This document shows, in pieces, positions 39,029-50,387 of a stretch of DNA of 64,000 nt. Source of the stretch: a bacterium (GTDB lineage: Bacteria > Verrucomicrobiota > Verrucomicrobiia > Verrucomicrobiales > Akkermansiaceae). The notes below the pieces were generated by a model that saw nothing but the letters and a program-made list of their open reading frames with translations, was not told where the DNA came from and searched no databases. Each line of letters begins with the position of its first letter. Positions within the stretch are counted from its first letter, which is position 1. A program made the translations under genes and the position numbers. The DNA lies in contig JAAEZT010000007.1 in the NCBI GenBank assembly GCA_018222765.1, forward strand, positions 1 to 64,000. Reading direction: 5' to 3'.

Positions 39029-41863
39029 TTATTCTGGCCAAGGCGCGTCGCTGAGGGCGGGGCCTGTTTTGAGTTTGGCTGGATCGATGACGAGGTGGCG
39101 GACGCGTTTTCGGTGCCATGTGTAGGTGAGATGGACTTTACCGTCTTTGGTCTGGATCATGGCGGGGTATGAGAATTCTCCTTTGTCAGCTTTCTCGATG
39201 ATCGCGGCGCTATGCCAGCTTTTACCGTCCTTGCTGATGGCGAGGTGAATCGCTTGGCGTCCTCTGGTGAGGTGGTTGTAGAGGAGGAGATGGCGACCGT
39301 CATTTAGGGTGAGGGCTTCGATGCCGGCGTTGTTGTTGGGGAGTCCAGATTTTTCGAGAGGGGTCCAGGTGATGCCGCCGTCCTTGGAGAAGTTTTGCAT
39401 GATGGCTTTGTGCTTCGAGCGATAGAGTGCCTGAACACAACCGTCGGTGTGGGTGAGAAGAGAAGGTTGGATGACCTGAAAGTCTTGTTTCTTTGGCTCG
39501 ACGCGCTTCCAGTTGTTGTTTTTGAGTCGTTCGAAATGAAAGCGCCAGTTGCCACCGTGCTCGGTTGAAGATGGGCAAAGGAGGGTTCCATCGGCGAGAA
39601 GGAGTGGCTTCGACCGCACGGGGCCGTTGATGCCCTCGGGGAGGCGTTTACGATCGCGGAATGAGCGTCCGCGATCGTAGCTGGTCATCACCTCGCCCCA
39701 CCAAGTCTGCGGATTGGGGCCGACTTTGAAGAAGAGGGAGAGCGGAGCGTCCCCCGTTGGCTGATAGAGGACGGGATTCCAAGTGGGGTAGCGGAGGTCA
39801 GCGTGTTGAATACCGTTGGCCCACTCGACTCCCTTGCTCCAACCTTTGCCGTCGTTATAGCTAGACCAGATCCCGACGTCTTTGTGTTTTTCGTGCGTGC
39901 CACCGAACCAGGCGACGACGAGGCCGCGGCTTGTTTCGGCAATAGTGGAAGCGTGACAGGAGAGATGAGGCGCCTTGGTAAAGATGAAGTCTTCGCTGAG
40001 GAGTCCAGGAAAACGCGGTGGCGGAACCTTGGCGGGAGGATTGGCTTTGAGGGCTTCGGGAGGGTAGCTAAGGCAGTTTTCGTGTTTGATGAAGTAGAGC
40101 CGCCCGTTCTCAGCGCCGACGATGAGGTCGGGTTTCCCGTTTTTATCGAAGTCACAAACGGTCGGGCTGCTGGTGTGTCCGGCGACGTTACGTTTGGCGA
40201 GGTTGCCGATTTTTTTTAAGATGACTTTCCCGTTTCCGGCGCTTTCGCAGTTGCGCCACCAAGTGGCGTTTTCTGAATTGGTGAGGATGTCGTTGCGTCC
40301 ATCGCCATCCCAATCGACAACGGCTATTTTGGCGCGGCCCGAGCGACCGGCGGTTTGACTGTTGAGGCGAATCGTCTTGAGATTTTCGTCAAGGAAGATG
40401 CGGGCGCTATTGCAGGTGAGATAGCCTTCGTGATCGAGAATGACGAGGTCGAGTTTTCCATCTTTATCGAAATCGGTGGCGAGTGGGGTCGTACGCCATT
40501 GAGTTTTAATTTTTCGATTGAGCGGTTCTTCCCTGAGGCCCTCGGCTGTGTTGCGAAGGATTTTGATTTCGGGGCGAATCGAGTTGTAGAGAATGTCGTA
40601 GCGCCCGTCGCCATCCCAGTCCGCGACGGAGAGAGTGGTATAACCCCACTTGGCTTCGGCGGGGCCTTGAATGGATCCGTTTTCTCCGGCAAGGACGCGG
40701 AAAGTTTTGCCGTCGGCTTCTAGCAGTTTAGGGGCGGCCCATTTGTTGCCTTTGCCGTCGAGGTTTTTGAAGAGAGCGATGTTTCCGGCAGTGTTGCCGC
40801 AGAGGATATCCTCGTCGCCGTCCTGATCCCAGTCGTGGGCGAAGGGCGTGGAGAGGGCCCCGAATTTGAGGGTGTCGGCCTCTTGCTGGAAATAAACCGG
40901 TTGAGCAAATACCGGCGTGGAGGCTTTTTTCGGGGTGAGGTTTTCGATGAAAGCGACGCGACCGTCTTCGTCACCTATGATGAGATCAATGTCGCCATCG
41001 CGATCCCAATCGAGAGCGGTGGGTGTGATCATTTGGACATACATGACGAGAGGATTATGATCGCTGCCCCTGAGTTTGATGCCCGCGGCATACTTTGGTT
41101 TCGAACGAGTACCGGTGTTTTGGAAGTAGGTGAAGCCATCAAGGAATTCTCCGCAGAGGAGGTCGAGGTCGCCATCGCTATCGAAGTCTGCGAAGTTGGG
41201 AGACGGCCAACCGTAGACGTCGACGGGAGAACCTCCGGCTTCCACTTTGACGGGAGTATTGGAGTAGCCGTTTGGTTTGTTTTTGATGAGGTAGATCCAG
41301 CCATGAAGCGGGCCGTTTTGCCAGCGGCCTTGGGCGTCATAAGCGTGGTCCCAAACGTAGTCGGACCAATCGCCGATACCAGCGATGAGATCTTGGTCGC
41401 CGTCGCCTTCCCAATCGACATAACGCCACATGCGGGCGCGAGTTTTGTTTAGGCCTTCTAATCTGTTGGTGGGGTAGATCTTTTCCTTTTTTGAGAAATT
41501 GTTATCACGGAAGTCAACGAACTCGTAGTTCTCGCGAAGGATGCGGGCTTTGCCATCAACGTAGCTGACCTGCGTGTTGTGGTTGGTCCTCGCGATGTGG
41601 ACTCCGGGTTTAAATGTGGGAAGTTTGACTGTGGGATCTTGAGTTGGATTTTCGAAAAAGTAGATTCCGTTGCTGGGTTTGTCGGGGCAGGAGACAAGGA
41701 GGTCGTAGTCGCCGTCATTATCGAAGTCCATCGGCATGGGCCAGGCCCAGAGTCCGACACCGAGATCGACCGAGAGTCCGGGGTTATTGTATTTGAGGGC
41801 ACGGAGTTTCCAATCTTCGGCTAGGAGAAAGGTTGGCAGAAAGAGGAGTAAAAAAAGGCGCAT
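39029..41863 (-). CDS. Exported VCBS/FG-GAP propeller fused to sialidase domain
   Basis: A 944-residue protein from ATG 41863 (MRLFLLLFLPTFLLA). About the first 610 residues are FG-GAP/VCBS repeats with calcium-binding D-x-D-x-D loops (DFDNDGDYDLL, DWEGDGDQDLI, DFDSDGDLDLL, DWDQDGDEDIL, DFDKDGKLDLV, DFDKNGKPDLI), together a propeller. Residues about 625 onward form a BNR/sialidase-like six-blade propeller (SYDRGRSFRD, SKDGGITWTP, SKDGKSWH Asp-box repeats). Likely an exo-alpha-sialidase family glycosidase or a binding protein. Convergent with DUF1080. Confidence 0.85.
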   Translation of the reverse strand: MRLFLLLFLPTFLLAEDWKLRALKYNNPGLSVDLGVGLWAWPMPMDFDNDGDYDLLVSCPDKPSNGIYFFENPTQDPTVKLPTFKPGVHIARTNHNTQVSYVDGKARILRENYEFVDFRDNNFSKKEKIYPTNRLEGLNKTRARMWRYVDWEGDGDQDLIAGIGDWSDYVWDHAYDAQGRWQNGPLHGWIYLIKNKPNGYSNTPVKVEAGGSPVDVYGWPSPNFADFDSDGDLDLLCGEFLDGFTYFQNTGTRSKPKYAAGIKLRGSDHNPLVMYVQMITPTALDWDRDGDIDLIIGDEDGRVAFIENLTPKKASTPVFAQPVYFQQEADTLKFGALSTPFAHDWDQDGDEDILCGNTAGNIALFKNLDGKGNKWAAPKLLEADGKTFRVLAGENGSIQGPAEAKWGYTTLSVADWDGDGRYDILYNSIRPEIKILRNTAEGLREEPLNRKIKTQWRTTPLATDFDKDGKLDLVILDHEGYLTCNSARIFLDENLKTIRLNSQTAGRSGRAKIAVVDWDGDGRNDILTNSENATWWRNCESAGNGKVILKKIGNLAKRNVAGHTSSPTVCDFDKNGKPDLIVGAENGRLYFIKHENCLSYPPEALKANPPAKVPPPRFPGLLSEDFIFTKAPHLSCHASTIAETSRGLVVAWFGGTHEKHKDVGIWSSYNDGKGWSKGVEWANGIQHADLRYPTWNPVLYQPTGDAPLSLFFKVGPNPQTWWGEVMTSYDRGRSFRDRKRLPEGINGPVRSKPLLLADGTLLCPSSTEHGGNWRFHFERLKNNNWKRVEPKKQDFQVIQPSLLTHTDGCVQALYRSKHKAIMQNFSKDGGITWTPLEKSGLPNNNAGIEALTLNDGRHLLLYNHLTRGRQAIHLAISKDGKSWHSAAIIEKADKGEFSYPAMIQTKDGKVHLTYTWHRKRVRHLVIDPAKLKTGPALSDAPWPE

Positions 41864-42104
41864 GACTCTAGGAAGGGATACCGCCTGAGGTGCAAAGGGT
41901 TTTCGAAGAGTTCGATTTTTTTTGGAGAGAGGAGGACTTGCTCTGATTTTGAGTGCGGCGTTATCGGCCTCCCGAAGATAGTGATGAACAAGTTGTAAAC
42001 CGCCGCAAAACGGAGGAGAATGCAGCCACGTCAACCCCAAACAAAGTTAGATCAACGCCATAACCCCGAAAAAACGAAACGGTTCGCTGCATACAGCACC
42101 ACCG
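41864..42104. other. Spacer before sulfotransferase remnant
   Basis: Upstream region of the VCBS-sialidase gene. Contains no confident gene. It probably includes that gene's promoter and may hold further, unrecognisable remnant of the decayed sulfotransferase that begins downstream. Confidence 0.4.
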
Positions 42105-42456
42105 CACCGGCTACCCCTGTTTCAACGCAGGGCATCATCAATACCCCGCATCATTTTCATGGGGTGAAATCTGGAGGAGGCCACCGCCTCGCAACGGAGC
42201 ATGCTTGATCGTCATGGTCGCATGGGGTGAGAGTTCGGACAAACCCGCGTGCCCGAGATTTTTGGGGAGCAATTGCAAAAAATTGGCGTAGCTACCGCGG
42301 ACCGAGGGATTCCCTGCCTTACCTTGCGATACTCGGCTGCAATTCTAGGTTCGCAATCTGTGGTCGATCGCGTCAGTCTGTTCTCCGACGGATCGCTCGA
42401 TGCCCCCGGCGATGGTTGCCGCGGTGGATCCGACACTCTATCGTGAGAAATCATGA
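42105..42456 (+). pseudogene. Decayed copy of a sulfotransferase C-terminus
   Basis: Reading one plus-strand frame through stops gives an ungapped match to the C-terminus of the 44288-47266 protein: IIFMG*NLEEATASQRSMLDR against IVFMERALEEVVSSQRVMLDR, then VPEIFGEQLQKI, ADRGIPC, and after a one-base shift near 42412, AAVDPTLYRE. Two in-frame TGA codons lie at 42165 and 42228 (the first from CGA). It lies 25 bases before the FAD-enzyme start, in the same direction as that gene and opposite to the intact relative. Confidence 0.8.
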
Positions 42457-42481: not shown

Positions 42482-44080
42482 ATGACCGCAATCAATTCAA
42501 GTTATGACGTCGCGATTATCGGAAGCGGGCACAACGGTCTCGTGTCGGCCTGTTATCTCGCCAAGGCAGGCTTGTCAGTCCTGGTGTTGGAACGCAATGC
42601 GGAAATTGGTGGTGCCACCAAATCGAAAATGGCATTTGAAGGAGTGGAGGCCCGCCTCTCTGTTTATTCCTATCTGGTGAGCCTGTTTCCGGAGAAGATC
42701 GTCTCGGATCTCGGACTCGATCTGGAGTTGCGCTCTCGAAAAACTGCCTCCTGGACGCCCACATTCGAAAATGGAACGCGTCGCGAACTACTTCTTCGTT
42801 ACGGTGATCCTGAATCGGATCGAGTCGCGTTCAAGGGGCTCACTGGCAGTGATGATGACTACCGGGGTTACCTCGCGCTGCAGGAGATGCAAGAGCGCTT
42901 GGCCGCAATCATCTGGCCGAGTCTGACCGAGCCATTGGTGAGTCGTGATCAAATGCGGGCACGTCTGGATAGCGAAGGAAAAGAAGCGTGGCAGGCTCTT
43001 ATCGAGGAGCCGCTGGGCAAGGTGATTGAGGAGCTGATTTCGGATGACCTGGTGCGCGGGATGGTGTTCACTGATGCCCGGATTGGTGTGCCAACCTACC
43101 CGCATGACCCGACCTTGTTGCAGAACCGGTCGTTTCTTTATCATGTCATCGGCAGGGGGACGGGTGAGTGGCGTGTCCCGGTGGGTGGGATGGGTTCACT
43201 TGTCCATGAGTTGGTTAAGGTAGCGGAGTCCACGGGGAGAGTGACCTTTCAAACGGGAGCCAAGGTTTCCAAGCTTAACCCGGGCGCACCCCGCTCCTCG
43301 ATTGCGTATGAGATGGATGGCGATGAATGCGAGGTCCATGCTCGCTTCGTCCTGTGTAATGCCTCCGCCCAAGTTCTCGATCGCTTGACCGGCGTTAGTA
43401 GCAGCGTCGGGACGGATGTTGTCGAAGGAGCTGGATTCAAGATTAACATGTTGCTGGAGAAACTTCCGCAGCTCCGTTCTGATCTTTATCCTGCTAGCGA
43501 GGCCTTCGCGGGAACTGTTCATATCGACGAAGGCTATGAGCAGATGATTGAAAGCTATCGGCAGAGTATGTCTGGTAAGGTTCCCGAGAGGCCCCCGGGG
43601 GAGATCTACTGCCACACCTTGACCGACGATTCCATTTTATCCGATGATTTGAAGCAGCGTGGTTTTCACACCTTGACCTTATTCGGGCTCGATATGCCCT
43701 ACCGTCTTTTTGAGGAAGACAACGAGCGCGTGCGGGGAGAGGTGGTGGCGAAATATTTATCGGGCATCAACCAACACTTGGACGAGCCGATCGAATCCTG
43801 TCTGGCGAAAGACGCCAATGGCGATCTTTGCATTGAGGCGATGAGCCCGGTCGATCTCGAAAAGGCAATCCACTTGCCCAAAGGTAATATTTTCCACGGC
43901 GATCTGACTTGGCCATTTGCCGACGCCGAGGATGAGGTCGGTACTTGGGGAGTGGAGACTGTTCATCCACAGATCTACATTTGTGGCTCGTCCGCGAAGC
44001 GCGGAGGTGCGGTGAGCGGGGTCCCCGGCCACAATGCGGCCAAGAAAGTTTTAGAGGTCCTATCAGGAAGGCGAACTTAA
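42482..44080 (+). CDS. Phytoene-dehydrogenase-like FAD oxidoreductase
   Basis: A 532-residue COG1233-type flavoenzyme. The FAD dinucleotide motif DVAIIGSGHNGLVSACYLAKAGLSVLVLE is at the start; AEIGGATKS, VPVGGMGSLVHELVKVAESTGRV and the C-terminal PQIYICGSSAKRGGAVSGVPGHNAA are family hallmarks. Substrate unknown (carotenoid-, lipid- or retinoid-like). It is preceded by the sulfotransferase remnant and followed by the convergent PDE-TPR-sulfotransferase gene, suggesting an old link of FAD enzyme and sulfotransferase. Confidence 0.92.
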   Translation: MTAINSSYDVAIIGSGHNGLVSACYLAKAGLSVLVLERNAEIGGATKSKMAFEGVEARLSVYSYLVSLFPEKIVSDLGLDLELRSRKTASWTPTFENGTRRELLLRYGDPESDRVAFKGLTGSDDDYRGYLALQEMQERLAAIIWPSLTEPLVSRDQMRARLDSEGKEAWQALIEEPLGKVIEELISDDLVRGMVFTDARIGVPTYPHDPTLLQNRSFLYHVIGRGTGEWRVPVGGMGSLVHELVKVAESTGRVTFQTGAKVSKLNPGAPRSSIAYEMDGDECEVHARFVLCNASAQVLDRLTGVSSSVGTDVVEGAGFKINMLLEKLPQLRSDLYPASEAFAGTVHIDEGYEQMIESYRQSMSGKVPERPPGEIYCHTLTDDSILSDDLKQRGFHTLTLFGLDMPYRLFEEDNERVRGEVVAKYLSGINQHLDEPIESCLAKDANGDLCIEAMSPVDLEKAIHLPKGNIFHGDLTWPFADAEDEVGTWGVETVHPQIYICGSSAKRGGAVSGVPGHNAAKKVLEVLSGRRT

Positions 44081-44196: not shown

Positions 44197-44290
44197 CTAG
44201 TTAGCTGCCAGCAGTTCGCTGCGGAAGCTGGATGGGGGTTTCTCCAGCGCAATTTCGCCAAAGGCATCGGCGGGGGCATGCGTCGCGTTA
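44197..44290 (-). other. Coding-like tail beyond the fusion gene stop
   Basis: Just after the stop of the 44288-47266 gene, a one-base-shifted minus-strand frame reads PADAFGEIALEKPPSS-FRSELLAAN to a TAG (44197-44199). It looks like the natural C-terminus of a protein. Removal of a single base after the GKD codons would join it to the sulfotransferase. Alternatively it is a stray fragment. Confidence 0.35.
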
Positions 44291-47266
44291 GTCTTTTCCT
44301 TGTTCCCGGTAGAGGGTCGGGTCGACGGCGGTGGCCAATGCGGTCGTGTCGAGCGATTTGTCAAAGAAGCGGTTCAGTTGATTCGCCACGGAGAGAGGAT
44401 CGCGGATTGCCTCTGCGTGCTGGACTCTAATGCAGGGGATTCCGCGATCTGTAATGACGGTCTGGATTTTTTGTATTTGTCCGAAGAAGATCTCGGCAAG
44501 GCGGGTTTGATCGAGTGCGGCACCTTTGCGTTGCTGGCGGTCGAGCATGACGCGCTGTGAGGAGACGACTTCCTCGAGAGCTCGCTCCATGAACACGATA
44601 CGATAGTGAGCGGGCGCGCCGTCAATTTTTCTTGGGAGCAGCGGAAGGAGCTGCGCAACAATCTTGACGACCTTGCCCTTTCCCTCGCTGATCCAATCCG
44701 CGTCGCTACCAAGCTGCTTCGCTTTGTCATATTCATAGTAGCCCCTGGGGTTTGAGATGTCGGCTTCGCGAATTCCATCGGTGAGCGGAGGAAGGCCTCC
44801 TGCGACCAACATCTGCATCATCATCGAGGTCCCCGATCGCGGCAGACCTGTTACAATGTTGATGACCTCGCTTGGATCGACCGATAATCCGGGCTCGGAA
44901 GATATCGCTACCGTATTCACGGTCGGCTTCGGGTGGGACGACGGTGAATTTTCCGGTTTGGCAGCAGGATTACGACCCGTTCTCTTCTGATCCTGTAGCA
45001 TCTTGAGCTTGAAGGAATGTGTCGACGCAAGATCCCGGCGTCCAAGCTTGGTGCGATAGAGCATCGCGAGGTAGCGATGAGCTGTGGGCGTGTTCGGTGC
45101 CAATTTGAGGCAGGTTTGGAATGCCTCTACGGCCTTTTCGTATAGGCCAAGTCTTGTCAGTGTCGCACCGAGTCGAAGGTGTGCTCGGGGCATGTTGTGG
45201 ATCAGTTCCACCGCGCTCAGGGCGTGGTTGGCGGCCTCCTCGTGGCGCTTCAGGCGCGCTAGGACGGCCGCCAGCACCTCGTGGGCCTGAGCATTGTCAG
45301 GGTCGATTTCGAGGGCTTTTTCGCAGGCCCGTATTGCTTCATCGTTTCTACGTATGCGGAGATAAGTTTGGGCGAGCTGTAGATGCAATCCGGGCAGTCG
45401 TGGCTCGGCTTGCTCCGCTTTGCCCAGGTAAGTGAGGGCTTTTTTGAAATTGCCATCCATTGCCTCCAAGCGTCCAAGCAGCAAGCAGACTGTCGGGGCG
45501 GCGCGCACGTTGTAATGGCGGAGTATATCGACTGTTTTTTGCAATTGACCTCTGCGTTGCGCGAGAAATTCCTCCTTCTTAAGGAAGGTGAGAGGCTCGA
45601 TGTTTCGCGCTTCATGCTTCTTCTTCGTGGTTTGGGCCTCCTCGGCGTCTACTTGTTTACGGTGCCTCTTTTCCTGTTTCTCTCTCACGGTGGCGATGAC
45701 CTCCTCGGGCTGCTCATCAATTTTGCGCAAGGCCTCGTTGAGCTGTTTGATTTTTATGAGATTTCTCTTCTCAATCATTGTGAGCAAGCCCTCGGCCACC
45801 GAGCGGGTTTCCTCGAATCGACCTTGCTTCAGATAGACCCGGGAAAGGTCGAGGCCAAAACGAGTTTGTTCGGGGGAGTCCCGGTAGAGTTTCTCCAGAT
45901 GACCGGCGGCCTTCTCCAGCAACCCTCCGTCTTGATAGGCACGGGCGAGGTTGTAGTTGGCTTCGCGTGAAGCATCTCTGGCTGCCTTTTCCTCGTTCTC
46001 GTCGGGCTCCTGAATGTATCCCAGTTCTACCAGTTGGCGTAAGGCTTCTCGTGTTGCGAAGGGGTCCTGTTGTTCGCCCTTTGGATGCATTCCCGCTTCG
46101 CCGGGCACGTCTTCCCAGCTGGAGATCATCTTCGGGGGATGCCACCACTGTTCGCCGATCACGTGCGCCATCGGCTTCCCATCCATGTCCTCTCCCGCAG
46201 GAAGCCCAAGCAAATTGAGAACAGTAGGAGCGATGTCGAGTAAGTTGGCACCGTAGATTTTCTCGCCCTTTTTGATGCCAGGACCGGCCATGGCGATGAT
46301 TCCCTGATCCCGGTGCCAGACGGCCGGACCGCCAGATTCTTTTGGCGTTTCCCTTGGCCGAAGATGGTCGCAATGATATCCGTGATCCGAACAGAGAATG
46401 AGGGTAGTATCCTCCCCGGCAAGCTCCATCAACCGCCCCAGCATAAGGTCGTGGAACTTGTAGCAAGCCGCCATCACGTCCCGATAGATTTCAAACTCCT
46501 TCCCGCTAACGTGGGCCATGCGCGGCGGGTGATATTCCATGAATCCGTGGCCGAAGTGATCGATGGAATCGTAATAGACTCCCATAAAGTCCCAGTCGTT
46601 CTGTTGGATGGTATAGGTTGCAGCGTTGTGGACGCTGAGCATCTCTGCGTAGAGCTTCGCGAACATTTTCAATCGCGGGTCTTTTTCCTGGTCAATTTTC
46701 GTGGCTTGGGGGATGAAGAATTTAATGGCCTCTGCGCTCACTTCTAATGGGTGAACCCTTAGTTTTGCCAATTTCTCGCGCTGTGACGCGGGGAATATAC
46801 AGCCATCGGATAAGGGCGGGAGAGAGCAATGTTGAGGATTTTTTTTGTCGAGGGGGACTTTTTGAAAAAGGTCGGAGATACAGATCCCGTTGATCGGTTC
46901 CGCGGGATGTCCGACGAACCAAGAGACGACGTTGGTGGTCATTCCCTCCTGAGTCAGGATATTCCAAAGCGCCTTGCATTTTCGAGTGGTGCTAGAAGAA
47001 GGGCGCACTCCCTTGCCATCCGGCATCGGTTCGGTGAACCCATGGATTCCGTGTTTATACGCCCGTTTCCCGGTTCCGATCGAATTCCAAAGCATCGGAC
47101 TGAGAACGGGCTTGAGCGTCGCTAGATTTCCCCGGACTCCTCGATCCAGAAATCTCCGCATGTTCGGCATTGCCCCCTCGGCGAGGTATTTATCGATGAG
47201 CTTCCAGTCCGCGGCGTCCCACCCGATCAATAGGACGCGTTTGGCGAGGCGTTTTGGTTCGATCAT
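44288..47266 (-). CDS. Phosphodiesterase-TPR-sulfotransferase fusion
   Basis: A 992-residue protein without signal peptide. Residues 8-400: type I phosphodiesterase/nucleotide-pyrophosphatase fold with metal ligands in LIGWDAADWK, PVLSPMLWNSIGTG, DSIDHFGHGF, CSDHGYHCDH and AVWHRDQG. Residues about 430-780: TPRs (ANYNLARAYQDGGLLEKAAGHLEK, LHLQLAQTYLRIRRNDEAI, AHEVLAAVLARLKRHEEAA, AHLRLGATLTRLGLYEKAVEAF). Residues about 800-992: P-loop sulfotransferase (IVTGLPRSGTSMMMQM at 805, NPRGYYEYDKAK, DRGIPCIRVQ). Inferred cytoplasmic or membrane-associated. A sulfate-transfer plus hydrolase function on one substrate is plausible but unproved. Confidence 0.9.
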   Translation of the reverse strand: MIEPKRLAKRVLLIGWDAADWKLIDKYLAEGAMPNMRRFLDRGVRGNLATLKPVLSPMLWNSIGTGKRAYKHGIHGFTEPMPDGKGVRPSSSTTRKCKALWNILTQEGMTTNVVSWFVGHPAEPINGICISDLFQKVPLDKKNPQHCSLPPLSDGCIFPASQREKLAKLRVHPLEVSAEAIKFFIPQATKIDQEKDPRLKMFAKLYAEMLSVHNAATYTIQQNDWDFMGVYYDSIDHFGHGFMEYHPPRMAHVSGKEFEIYRDVMAACYKFHDLMLGRLMELAGEDTTLILCSDHGYHCDHLRPRETPKESGGPAVWHRDQGIIAMAGPGIKKGEKIYGANLLDIAPTVLNLLGLPAGEDMDGKPMAHVIGEQWWHPPKMISSWEDVPGEAGMHPKGEQQDPFATREALRQLVELGYIQEPDENEEKAARDASREANYNLARAYQDGGLLEKAAGHLEKLYRDSPEQTRFGLDLSRVYLKQGRFEETRSVAEGLLTMIEKRNLIKIKQLNEALRKIDEQPEEVIATVREKQEKRHRKQVDAEEAQTTKKKHEARNIEPLTFLKKEEFLAQRRGQLQKTVDILRHYNVRAAPTVCLLLGRLEAMDGNFKKALTYLGKAEQAEPRLPGLHLQLAQTYLRIRRNDEAIRACEKALEIDPDNAQAHEVLAAVLARLKRHEEAANHALSAVELIHNMPRAHLRLGATLTRLGLYEKAVEAFQTCLKLAPNTPTAHRYLAMLYRTKLGRRDLASTHSFKLKMLQDQKRTGRNPAAKPENSPSSHPKPTVNTVAISSEPGLSVDPSEVINIVTGLPRSGTSMMMQMLVAGGLPPLTDGIREADISNPRGYYEYDKAKQLGSDADWISEGKGKVVKIVAQLLPLLPRKIDGAPAHYRIVFMERALEEVVSSQRVMLDRQQRKGAALDQTRLAEIFFGQIQKIQTVITDRGIPCIRVQHAEAIRDPLSVANQLNRFFDKSLDTTALATAVDPTLYREQGKD

Positions 47267-47393: not shown

Positions 47394-48269
47394 TTAGATT
47401 TCTTCTTCGATACGGAAAAAGAGATCAGGTTCTTCTGTCAGATTTTCGAACAAGGTGAAGGTCACTGTGATGTGATCTGCATCTTCGGGATTCTCGTCAT
47501 CGGCTGCGGTGATGCCGTCATCCAGATCCTGACTCCAGTCGCTCATGTCGGTCGAGTATTTGAGGATGTAGGATGTGGCGGTAGTTTTCCGCCAGGTCAG
47601 GGTCACCGTGTTGGCATCTGTGTCGTGTTCAAATTTGGTGATGGTCAGTGGTGCAGGAGCTGAATCGGTGGGGGGAGCAGATGCGGCCTCGGGGGTGTCA
47701 TTGTAGCCAAAGGCGTGAAGCGTTGCGGTATTCACGGCGTCATTGTAAGTGATGTCGGCCCAGCCGTAGTGGGTGGCATCGTCGAGTTTAAAACGAATTC
47801 CAACAAATCCCCGGGTGCCCTCCGGGTTCCAGTTGTCCAAGTTCGCATAGTTGCCAATCGAAGGGTAGTCGGCGTTCCCGCCGAAGGTTTGGCTCTCGCC
47901 GATTTGGGTACCGGCTGCAAGCAGGATAGCGTCTGACCCAACACCCACGAAGGCGCCGAAAGTACTTGAGGCGGGAGTGTAGATATAAGCTCTGCCAAAA
48001 CCTGCCAGGGCAGCGTAATTGCCGATCAAACGCATCGAGCCTGAGGTTACGTTTCCATCATCGTTGGCGGCGCTGGCGGTTTCGCCAGTTACCATGTTGA
48101 ACAGAAGACCAGGATCATCCCCGACTACGATGTCGGGAATATCCCATATTACCTCGGCAGCCCCGGCTATATCGGCCACCGAGGCGGTCGCTGCGGCGAC
48201 AGCCGAGTAGGCACCGAGACGTTTTGCTAAATTGAAACTATTGCAGGGCACTATTTGGTGTTCTTTCAT
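47394..48269 (-). CDS. Exported protein of unknown function
   Basis: A 291-residue protein. The N-terminus NLAKRLGAYSAVAAATASVAD resembles an export signal with AGAAEV cleavage. The body (NYAALAGFGRAYIYTPASSTFGAFVGVGSDAIL) is rich in Gly and Asn, as in structural secreted proteins, with WADITYNDAVNTATLHAFGY near the middle. The last 85 residues form a fibronectin-like module (ITKFEHDTDANTVTLTWRK, YILKYSTDMSDWSQ, ending LFFRIEEEI), matching in layout the C-terminus of the 1-756 protein. No recognised enzymatic domain. 127 bases from the fusion gene, same strand. Confidence 0.7.
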   Translation of the reverse strand: MKEHQIVPCNSFNLAKRLGAYSAVAAATASVADIAGAAEVIWDIPDIVVGDDPGLLFNMVTGETASAANDDGNVTSGSMRLIGNYAALAGFGRAYIYTPASSTFGAFVGVGSDAILLAAGTQIGESQTFGGNADYPSIGNYANLDNWNPEGTRGFVGIRFKLDDATHYGWADITYNDAVNTATLHAFGYNDTPEAASAPPTDSAPAPLTITKFEHDTDANTVTLTWRKTTATSYILKYSTDMSDWSQDLDDGITAADDENPEDADHITVTFTLFENLTEEPDLFFRIEEEI

Positions 48270-48557
48270 TTGGATTATTGATTGCTTCGCCTGAAAAAAT
48301 GCAAGTGTCAGTTGCTACAGAATCTGATTATAGGCAAAACCTATCGAATAGGTGTTCGGTTGTCTAGATTTCGATACGACAATCACCCTCCCTTTTGCGC
48401 CGTGTTGACGGTCATTTGCTGCGAGGACAGCTTCAGCCTTGTAAAGGTCTGCGACTGCCGTCCAAAATACATTGGTGTTTGAGATTCGTTCTATCTCACT
48501 GCCAAAATGGAGTAACTCCAGCCGGCGGCAGGATTTGTTGGCTTGAGGACAAAAGGT

Positions 48558-50387
48558 ATGAGTAAGATCACAAGAAGAGATTTTGTTAATGGATCCCTGT
48601 TGGCTGCAGGAGCTTCCCTGTTGTCCAATGAAGCGGTCGCACGGCGCGCGCTTGATCCATCATATTACCCTCCTTTGCGGACGGGGCTGAGAGGCAGTCA
48701 CCCGGGTTCAAATGAGCACGCGCATAGCCGGGCATGGGGGCCGCAATCTGACTGGGGAAAAGTCAGTGAGTTGGCGGAGGTCTACGATCTGATCGTTGTT
48801 GGTGGAGGTCTCAGTGGGCTTTCAGCGGCCTACTTTTATCAGCAGAAACATGGGCGGGATAAGAAGGTCTTGATTCTAGATAACCACGATGATTTTGGAG
48901 GGCACGCCAAGCGTAACGAACATACCATAAATGGGAATACCCGAATCACCTACGGCGGTTCGCAAACTCTGGTCAAGCCTCACGAAGGTGGTGAAGTTGT
49001 GCTCCAGCTTTTCAAGGAGATCGGGGTTGATCTTGAGTTGTTTAAAACGGCCTATGATCGAGATTTTTTTAAGAGGCACGATCTTGGGGCCGTGACTTAT
49101 TTTAACAAGCAGGTTTTCGGGCGAGACAAGGTGGTTAGGCATCCGTATTGCAATTACCCGAACTACATCGAAGGTTTGCAGGGTTCCCGGCTGTCGAGTG
49201 CCGAAGCTGCCCGGGAGGCAGCTTTAAGTGATCGGGGGAAAGAGCAATTACTTCGTGTTCTCAACAGTGGGTTGCATTCAATCAAGGTCCCCAAGGGTGA
49301 GTTGGAAGACTATCTCGATGATACATCGTACTTTGATTATTTGAAAAACGTCCTGGGTGTTGATGATCCCGGTGTACTAAGGATGGCTAGGAATTCCGGA
49401 CTCGACTGGGCCAGCACGGGAACCGACTTGATGAGCATCCGGGCCGCCAAGAATTGCGGAGCACTGGGATTCTCGCCGGTGGCAGTATACGATAAGGAAA
49501 ATCCATATATTCATCATTTTCCAGATGGTAATGCAGGGGTTGCCCGGGCCTTGGTTAAGAAAATGATTCCCACGGTGGGAAAGGGGAAGAATGCCGAAGA
49601 GCTACTGCTTTCGCGGTTCGATTACTCTGAATTGGACCAATCCGGGAATGCCGTACGAATCAGGCTGAATAGTACTGTGATTGAGGTGCGACATGGTGGT
49701 GTCCCCAAAGATTCCAGTGAGGTGTTCGTGACTTATATCCAGAGCGATAGGCTCTTCCGGGTGAAGGCTGGAGCTGTCGTTCTGGCTTGCCATAACAAGA
49801 TGATCCCACACATCGTGCCGGACCTTCCGGAGAGACAGGCGTCGGCATTAAGGCTGCAGGAGAAGAGTCCGTTGCAGTATACCACGGTGGGATTGCGGAA
49901 TTGGAGAGCGATGAAAGAGCGGGGTATTGGTTTGGCCATGTCGCCCGGGAACATGCACCAGGCAGTTCTCATGGATTTCCCGGTAAGTATGGGGGGTTAT
50001 CAATTCACGAATTCACCGGATGACCCTTGCGTGATTCAGATGATCAGCTGTCCCTACGGAGAAAAATATGGGACGCCCCGAATCGAGCAGTATCGAGAAG
50101 CCCGATATCGGATGCTTGGTTTAAAATTTAGCGATTACGAAGAAGAGATTCGGAATCACCTTGGCGGAATGCTTAACGGGGAATTATTTGATTTCGACAG
50201 AGATGTTGAGAGTATATCGGTGAATCGTTGGGCGCATGGCTATACCACCGGAGGTCCGGGGAATTCGACAAGGATTGGTCGCCAACCATTTGGTCGAATT
50301 GCTATCGCCAATGCCGACTCCGCTCCGGAAGCCGACGCGAAAGCCGCAATCCTTATGGCACATCGGGCGGTCAAGGAATTGGGGTGA
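48558..50387 (+). CDS. Tat-exported FAD oxidoreductase, spermidine-dehydrogenase-like
   Basis: A 609-residue enzyme from ATG 48558 (MSKITRRDFVNGSLLAAGAS), with a twin-arginine-type signal. FAD motif YDLIVVGGGLSGLSAAYFYQ (residues about 80-98), DNHDDFGGHAKRNEH and ITYGGSQTLVKP match the SpdH-type NAD(P)-binding amine dehydrogenase family; the C-terminus has RWAHGYTTGGPG and GRIAIANADSAPEAD. Periplasmic oxidation of polyamines or related amines is likely by family. Stands between the exported protein and gpmI, both separated by about 180-290 bases. Confidence 0.87.
   Translation: MSKITRRDFVNGSLLAAGASLLSNEAVARRALDPSYYPPLRTGLRGSHPGSNEHAHSRAWGPQSDWGKVSELAEVYDLIVVGGGLSGLSAAYFYQQKHGRDKKVLILDNHDDFGGHAKRNEHTINGNTRITYGGSQTLVKPHEGGEVVLQLFKEIGVDLELFKTAYDRDFFKRHDLGAVTYFNKQVFGRDKVVRHPYCNYPNYIEGLQGSRLSSAEAAREAALSDRGKEQLLRVLNSGLHSIKVPKGELEDYLDDTSYFDYLKNVLGVDDPGVLRMARNSGLDWASTGTDLMSIRAAKNCGALGFSPVAVYDKENPYIHHFPDGNAGVARALVKKMIPTVGKGKNAEELLLSRFDYSELDQSGNAVRIRLNSTVIEVRHGGVPKDSSEVFVTYIQSDRLFRVKAGAVVLACHNKMIPHIVPDLPERQASALRLQEKSPLQYTTVGLRNWRAMKERGIGLAMSPGNMHQAVLMDFPVSMGGYQFTNSPDDPCVIQMISCPYGEKYGTPRIEQYREARYRMLGLKFSDYEEEIRNHLGGMLNGELFDFDRDVESISVNRWAHGYTTGGPGNSTRIGRQPFGRIAIANADSAPEADAKAAILMAHRAVKELG

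Follow-up and report, generated by a model that had tools for sequence, protein, structure and literature searches.

A phosphodiesterase-TPR-sulfotransferase protein and its secreted-looking upstream partner in Akkermansiaceae suggest a possible pre-export processing route for surface proteins

What is a bacterial cell to do with a single polypeptide that carries a phosphodiesterase at one end, a sulfotransferase at the other, and a tetratricopeptide repeat (TPR) array in between? Such a protein, here called the enzyme, is encoded within a 64,000-nucleotide stretch of an Akkermansiaceae genome of the phylum Verrucomicrobiota (positions 1 to 64,000 of contig JAAEZT010000007.1, assembly GCA_018222765.1), to which we refer as the window (Table 1). 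We describe here that genes for such enzymes adjoin genes for secreted-looking surface proteins, the partners, far above chance, and that many of these partners begin with a short N-terminal tag. With somewhat less than even confidence, and from sequence comparison, we favor a reading in which the cytoplasmic enzyme would modify tagged surface proteins before their export, probably acting as a sulfotransferase with a phosphodiesterase that may serve 3'-phosphoadenosine 5'-phosphate (PAP) or its sulfated form, 3'-phosphoadenosine 5'-phosphosulfate (PAPS).

The enzyme gene begins with an ATG, and the preliminary description of its product, made from the sequence alone, as one chain of phosphodiesterase, TPR and sulfotransferase domains is borne out by profile and structure-model matches. 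The Pfam model Phosphodiest matches residues 11-297 at 86.5 bits against a cut-off of 23, and TPR_1, TPR_2, TPR_8 and TPR_14 exceed their cut-offs over residues ~597-740. The model Sulfotransfer_3 scores 16.9 bits on the whole protein, below its 27-bit cut-off, and 27.6 bits, above it, on the C-terminal domain alone; among 68 aligned C-terminal domains it matches all 68 and Sulfotransfer_1 matches 59 (E<=0.01). When a profile of this domain is compared with the sequences of the PDB, cytosolic sulfotransferases rank first (best 4.7e-6). The AlphaFold2 model has a predicted local distance difference test (pLDDT) score of 89.1 and a predicted template modelling (pTM) score of 0.73, and its residues ~8-373 superpose on structures of the nucleotide pyrophosphatase-phosphodiesterases (NPP/ENPP, PF01663), including Xac NPP, with Z ~25 over ~270 residues; the best match has Z 25.9 and a root-mean-square deviation of 2.8 over 278 residues at 16% identity. 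The tandem 34-residue helical hairpins of TPR proteins are seen both in the Pfam matches and as a helical array in the model, where residues 589-764 match MamA (3vty_A, Z 23.5), and a low-confidence linker at residues 765-792 leads to the sulfotransferase domain. No sulfotransferase structure is among the best 50 rows of either of two whole-model comparisons, in which the rows are filled by the other domains.

The same description had taken the active-site motifs to be seemingly intact in both catalytic ends, and this too stands. We aligned 84 homologs, restricted to single open reading frames (ORFs) spanning from residue 30 or earlier to residue 950 or later and leaving aside split or sulfotransferase-less forms (L015, L048, L064, L085, L102 and others), L009, and the same-genome repeats L088-L091. 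Twenty-one of the 22 site positions counted are invariant, including D17, S56, D236, H240, D294, H295, H318, G807, R810, G812, T813, S814, R895, and S903, and only position 811 varies (S in 79, T in 4, and A in 1). The two-metal site of the alkaline phosphatase (AlkP) superfamily, consisting of the Ser/Thr nucleophile position and six Asp/His ligands, is kept in every row, with Ser as the nucleophile in all 84, and the P-loop of the 5'-phosphosulfate-binding (5'-PSB) motif and the R...S pair of the 3'-phosphate-binding (3'-PB) motif are invariant apart from position 811. We assign the C-terminus to the sulfotransferase family and the N-terminus to the AlkP type I phosphodiesterases, both with their predicted site residues present; the C-terminus did not fall to another P-loop family, nor are N-terminal metal ligands missing.

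The three-domain combination is widespread and not an oddity. When species genomes of bacteria and archaea were scanned, the matches listed gave 79 distinct loci from at least 574 confirmed stretches, most of them aligning over nearly the full length. By record titles, full-length relatives occur in at least eight phyla, with Verrucomicrobiota, Planctomycetota, Nitrospirota, Acidobacteriota, Pseudomonadota, deltaproteobacterial groups, Bacteroidota, Cyanobacteriota, and Armatimonadota among the labels, although most of the records are metagenome bins and individual labels may be wrong. A survey of 288 Verrucomicrobiota genomes (E<=1e-60) found phosphodiesterase-bearing members at 18 places in 15 genomes and sulfotransferase-only matches in 8 more, which are counted below among the 273 enzyme-less genomes. 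At L015, L064, L085, L102, and L174 the phosphodiesterase-TPR and sulfotransferase parts are two adjacent genes on the same strand, which argues that the fusion joins cooperating functions. Forms lacking the sulfotransferase occur at L048, whose genome has one elsewhere, and in G195 (L162), and the enzyme of G189 (L157) has lost most of that domain, with a C-terminal remnant left. Standalone relatives of the sulfotransferase domain adjoin sulfatase genes at L170, L171, and L172. Among plasmid records, 53 have distant matches, none spanning 80% of the query, and the 20 listed are all matches to the phosphodiesterase end.

Besides this wide distribution, the preliminary description had overlooked the conserved partner encoded upstream, which gives the strongest hint of what the enzyme does. 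With a profile free of sorting tails, 43 of the 61 enzyme genes that have at least 1.5 kb of upstream sequence show a partner-family member no more than 2 kb away, and at 37 of the 61 it is upstream on the same strand; relaxed limits add partners at L026, L040, L062, and L079. Three of the 61 genes (L009-L011) are near-identical, and because the profile was trained on members from the same loci we also made whole-genome checks. In the 288 genomes, 12 of 18 enzyme places have a core match next to them, as do 12 of 22 in a set of 58 relatives. Genomes were also counted for co-occurrence, with kinship ignored: among the relatives 13 genomes have both, four the enzyme only, seven the core only, and 34 neither (p 3e-5), and in the larger set the corresponding numbers are 11, 4, 28, and 245 (p 7e-8). 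Here an enzyme-less genome is one with no long phosphodiesterase match (58 relatives) or none at E<=1e-60 (288 genomes), and G022, counted as enzyme-less, may in fact carry the enzyme, with a fragment of 61% identity at the end of a contig. Across the 79 loci, the 258 kb close to the enzyme contain 58 family members and the 489 kb further out contain nine, and a single enzyme gene can be accompanied by arrays of four (L022, 119-4359) or five (L056, 812-6824) partners. Enzyme and partner very probably constitute a two-gene system.

Table 1. Positions of the enzyme, its domains, the partner and a decayed sulfotransferase end in the window
Feature	Position	Strand	Remarks
Phosphodiesterase-TPR-sulfotransferase protein	44288..47266	-	992 aa; inspection by eye shows no signal peptide
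AlkP-superfamily type I phosphodiesterase domain	46148..47242	-	residues ~9-373; D17, S56, D236, H240, D294, H295, H318
Helical/TPR region	44975..45994	-	residues ~425-764; Pfam, AlphaFold2 model, structure matches
Sulfotransferase domain	44297..44878	-	residues ~797-990; P-loop GLPRSGTS, R895...S903
Secreted-looking partner protein	47394..48269	-	291 aa; 127 bp upstream of enzyme gene, same strand; core motif FVGIRF...YGW...GY
N-terminal tag LAKRLGAY of partner	48207..48230	-	directly before hydrophobic part of signal peptide
Decayed 3' end of second sulfotransferase domain	42102..42404	+	46% identity to enzyme residues 871-974

Secretion of the window partner is read by eye from its sequence, and iterative profiles started from it recover a family with GfrF...YGW...WAY-like motifs. 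Its core matches no Pfam or NCBIfam model, and matches in 60 members are essentially confined to sorting tails, with 23 members matching PEP-CTERM and seven matching IPTL-CTERM (E<=0.01); the window partner has no PEP-CTERM-like or other sorting-tail match at that threshold. Its predicted structure is poor (pLDDT 61.6) and gave no Foldseek match at E<=0.001, which is uninformative as to fold. The flocculation protein PepA was considered as a member of the same family and set aside, since in ten proteins scanned singly all matches to it were below cut-off and several were to the tail only.

Linked partners often start with L..[RKQ][LI]..Y ahead of the hydrophobic part of the signal peptide. About half carry this N-terminal tag, as L..[RK]L..Y: a strict pattern, fixed after the sequences had been inspected, occurs in 35 of 71 linked versus one of 34 unlinked members, and in about two of 71 shuffles, with rows of fewer than 35 N-terminal residues and some near-duplicates dropped. 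The two partner genes beside the truncated G189 enzyme (L202) show no tag, a single case. In some partners (L022, L055, L074) the tag is positioned well before the hydrophobic stretch. We also built a 39-position tag profile from 24 rows picked for the tyrosine, such that its invariance is by construction and matches to training rows are non-independent. In the 58 relatives it gives 15 strong matches (E<1e-6) in nine genomes, all nine enzyme-bearing (9 of 17 enzyme-bearing versus 0 of 41 enzyme-less, p 2e-6). Fourteen of the 15 adjoin an enzyme or sulfotransferase ORF and the other is near a contig end; seven are training rows, and seven of the remaining eight are adjacent, several of these eight being near orthologs of training rows. 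The 288 genomes yield four matches in three genomes, all four beside an enzyme and most of them training rows, with the one in G069:C9 clearly outside; sensitivity is low, as 12 of the 15 enzyme genomes have no match. At E<=0.001 the profile is confined to enzyme-bearing genomes in both Verrucomicrobiota sets, with matches in 0 of 41 and 0 of 273 enzyme-less genomes.

Beyond Verrucomicrobiota, 295 genomes from the phylum of a Nitrospirae genome contain 14 tag matches in eight genomes. In seven of the eight a match adjoins an ORF for a phosphodiesterase or a sulfotransferase, and in the eighth all matches are at contig ends, a proportion that refers to these eight tag-positive genomes, the ones in which the enzyme was looked for; five of the eight gave training rows, and two of the seven are outside training. 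In 48 enzyme-bearing genomes reached through the named loci there are 46 tag matches in 29 genomes, 25 of them within 3 kb of an enzyme place (many being training rows) and 21 elsewhere, and most of the distant matches inspected carry the same partner core. The tag is also seen on other proteins. PEP-CTERM neighbors in a paralogous enzyme clade (L137, L147/L225, L148/L222) begin NKLGSYL.V.AG in the same layout; they show weak similarity to the core (15.9 bits for L137, 15.8 for L225, and 12.0 for L222) and may be divergent family members. L138/L213, near a related enzyme, and the relative L215 begin NKLATYLAV.AG or similar with no detectable core, and at the Acidobacterial locus L072 a core-less upstream protein carries SLDRRLDAY. 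These tagged, secreted-looking neighbors without the core indicate, on few cases, that the association of tag and enzyme reaches somewhat further than a single family.

How might these components act together? With no signal peptide visible, the enzyme is probably cytoplasmic, and since the tag of a partner would face the cytoplasm before export, enzyme and tag could encounter each other in that compartment. Binding peptides and guiding their modification are known roles of TPR arrays, O-GlcNAc transferase being an example, and from this we infer that the TPR groove would bind the tag prior to export. The sulfotransferase domain would then transfer sulfate from PAPS to the partner, or to something that the partner carries, while the phosphodiesterase domain would remove inhibitory PAP or hydrolyze another phosphoester of the cycle. 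The tag would be lost together with the signal peptide, and whichever anchor the lineage uses would fix the modified protein at the surface. The separate parts of this scheme merit separate caution. That the sulfotransferase domain modifies the partner covalently is a possibility we hold slightly more tentatively than the overall reading, and service of the phosphodiesterase on the PAP/PAPS side is doubtful, if plausible. Inhibition of sulfotransferases by PAP has been reported, and the PAPS gene cluster of Pyrococcus yayanosii includes a gene for a type I phosphodiesterase, which the authors speculate to degrade pyrophosphate (PMC8268124). TPR proteins have been suggested as possible guides of covalent modification in PMC1569441. 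APS (adenosine 5'-phosphosulfate) kinase, which contributes to synthesis of the PAPS donor and is the sole pathway step searched for, is encoded in the window's own genome (E 4.9e-60); it was also considered as a marker for the enzyme and is too common to inform, being present in 46 of the 58 relatives. The most far-reaching version, a widely distributed bacterial system for protein sulfation or a related modification in which a private tag would recruit a cytoplasmic enzyme with a built-in PAP/PAPS-handling domain, we consider rather unlikely.

Several observations weigh against modification of tagged partners before export. At the fixed criteria no partner was found for 18 of the 61 enzyme genes, and none is beside six of 18 enzyme places in the 288 genomes or 10 of 22 in the relatives; APS kinase was not found in four of the 17 enzyme-bearing relatives, three of which are less than 90% complete. 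The tag is lacking in 29 of 70 linked members under the pattern applied to 114 core rows, and in some linked partners, from Methylococcaceae and Planctomycetes, it takes a form without the tyrosine. The strict pattern was chosen post hoc and a looser one discriminates more poorly (37 of 71 linked and seven of 34 unlinked members), two weak profile matches (E 0.007 and 0.009) occur in the enzyme-less G032, and the 21 distant tag matches of 46 fit action in trans but also looser linkage. The conserved core tyrosines were tested as sulfation acceptors and not supported, being kept as well in unlinked members: Y occupies the YGW position in 11 of 17 linked members (F in the other six), in 12 of 13 unlinked members from genomes with the enzyme, in 21 of 26 members from enzyme-less genomes, and in 61 of 67 at the named loci. 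Of the candidate acceptors, the core tyrosines do not distinguish linked from unlinked members, and some linked partners lack the tag tyrosine.

That no acceptor residue specific to linked members was found in the core also lends weight to an alternative, in which the sulfotransferase acts on a glycan, lipid, or small molecule and the sulfated product is then used or bound at the surface by the partner, which is only co-inherited and co-expressed with the enzyme and not its substrate. Sulfatase adjacency is typical of glycan or metabolite sulfation, and it is seen in three of eight loci of standalone domain relatives, with one neighboring ORF scanned at each. We consider this explanation unlikely, as it leaves unexplained both the TPR array and a cytoplasm-facing tag that is present on many linked partners and is rare or absent without the enzyme. 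A different concern is that the tag could be a mere mark of lineage, characteristic of a single partner subfamily that moves together with the enzyme gene, and not be recognized by the enzyme. Linked and unlinked members do largely resemble different subfamilies, and the weakly matching neighbors L137, L222, and L225 (12-16 bits) may be divergent members and not independent cases. Among the 114 core sequences, 41 of 70 linked members and two of 25 from enzyme-less genomes are tagged, and a tree-aware test on four to five supported pairs gave means of 0.9 vs 0.1 for linkage and 1.5 vs 0.2 for enzyme presence, the tagged unlinked rows coming from loci fetched by tag search; because this test is underpowered, it could not separate a lineage mark from recognition, and shared descent is a possible source of the link between tag and enzyme, a further point to set against recognition. 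A lineage mark does not readily account for tags on neighbors without detectable core (L138/L213, and L072 by pattern) or for those well ahead of the hydrophobic stretch (L022, L055, L074), and we regard it as improbable. Least probable by far is the proposal of the preliminary description that the two catalytic ends may load and edit sulfate or phospho groups on one substrate. Both sites are intact and fused in one chain, the AlkP fold includes sulfatases, and choline sulfatase (7ptj_C, Z 23.7) is among the structure matches; serine can moreover be matured to formylglycine in some sulfatases. However, the nucleophile position is Ser in 84 of 84 rows, and Ser together with the NPP-like fold leads us to read the N-terminal domain as a phosphoesterase.

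The proposed recognition and modification of tagged partners by the enzyme has partial parallels in several known systems. The enzyme shares with NPP/ENPP proteins the fold and all seven metal/nucleophile positions, but the nucleophile in those proteins is Thr, and they differ also in that the enzyme has TPR and sulfotransferase domains fused on and is cytoplasmic by our reading. With PAPS-dependent sulfotransferases (PF13469/PF00685) it shares the P-loop and the R-8-S pair as well as the Pfam and PDB profile matches, although its ~190-residue domain, unlike theirs, ends a TPR array. O-GlcNAc transferase and SPINDLY, both among the best structure rows, likewise have a TPR superhelix beside a transferase, but the transferase of the enzyme is a P-loop sulfotransferase and not a glycosyltransferase, and a phosphodiesterase is added. 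In RaxST/RaxX tyrosine sulfation a cytoplasmic bacterial sulfotransferase is encoded beside a secreted protein, a layout like that described here; unlike RaxX, the partner is mostly a surface-type protein of 200-340 aa with a separate tag, and its conserved core tyrosines are not specific to linked members. YSIRK-type signal peptides of Firmicutes are comparable in that a short conserved motif stands within or ahead of the signal peptide; the tag differs in its sequence, its diderm hosts, and its tie to one enzyme gene. The YSIRK type is named in PMC1569441, where 'sulfotransferase' and 'phosphodiesterase' do not appear in the main text. Many partners end as do PEP-CTERM/exosortase surface proteins; unlike in that system, linkage to the enzyme goes with the core and the N-terminal tag, and the tails vary.

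The pairing of enzyme and partner is not described in the literature searched, which lies outside most subscription journals and preprints, and terms for it are absent from the main text of PMC8205485, while PMC8776678 is unrelated to it. The arrangement suggests a dedicated, so far undescribed route by which surface proteins may be processed before export. If this is correct, the joint occurrence of tag, enzyme, and client family in different phyla would provide a system open to direct testing, and an entry point both to a large group of enzymes and to a secreted family with a model-less core in Planctomycetota, Verrucomicrobiota, Nitrospirota, and others. To our knowledge, protein sulfation is hardly known in bacteria.

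The surroundings of the pair in the window contain further traces of the enzyme. The decayed sulfotransferase end listed in Table 1 has two in-frame TGA codons, continues in another frame in its last part, and is situated upstream of a flavin adenine dinucleotide (FAD)-dependent oxidoreductase gene; we read it as a relic outside the working enzyme-partner pair. A near relative (G008) has a similar sulfotransferase remnant on the contig of its enzyme (C49:21616-21921), and a second broken enzyme copy is present in the window's own genome (G000:C15:150400-150672, L002), where a 117-residue frame has 56% identity to residues 13-103. Two FAD-dependent oxidoreductases (42482-44080 and 48543-50387), with weak NCBIfam similarity to carotenoid enzymes and PigB, flank the pair, and among the loci compared both are confined to those of near relatives; the 42482-44080 gene was considered as a conserved partner and rejected on this ground (E<=1e-4). 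At 39029-42040 a 1003-residue protein joins FG-GAP repeats with a BNR_2 (sialidase-like) domain.

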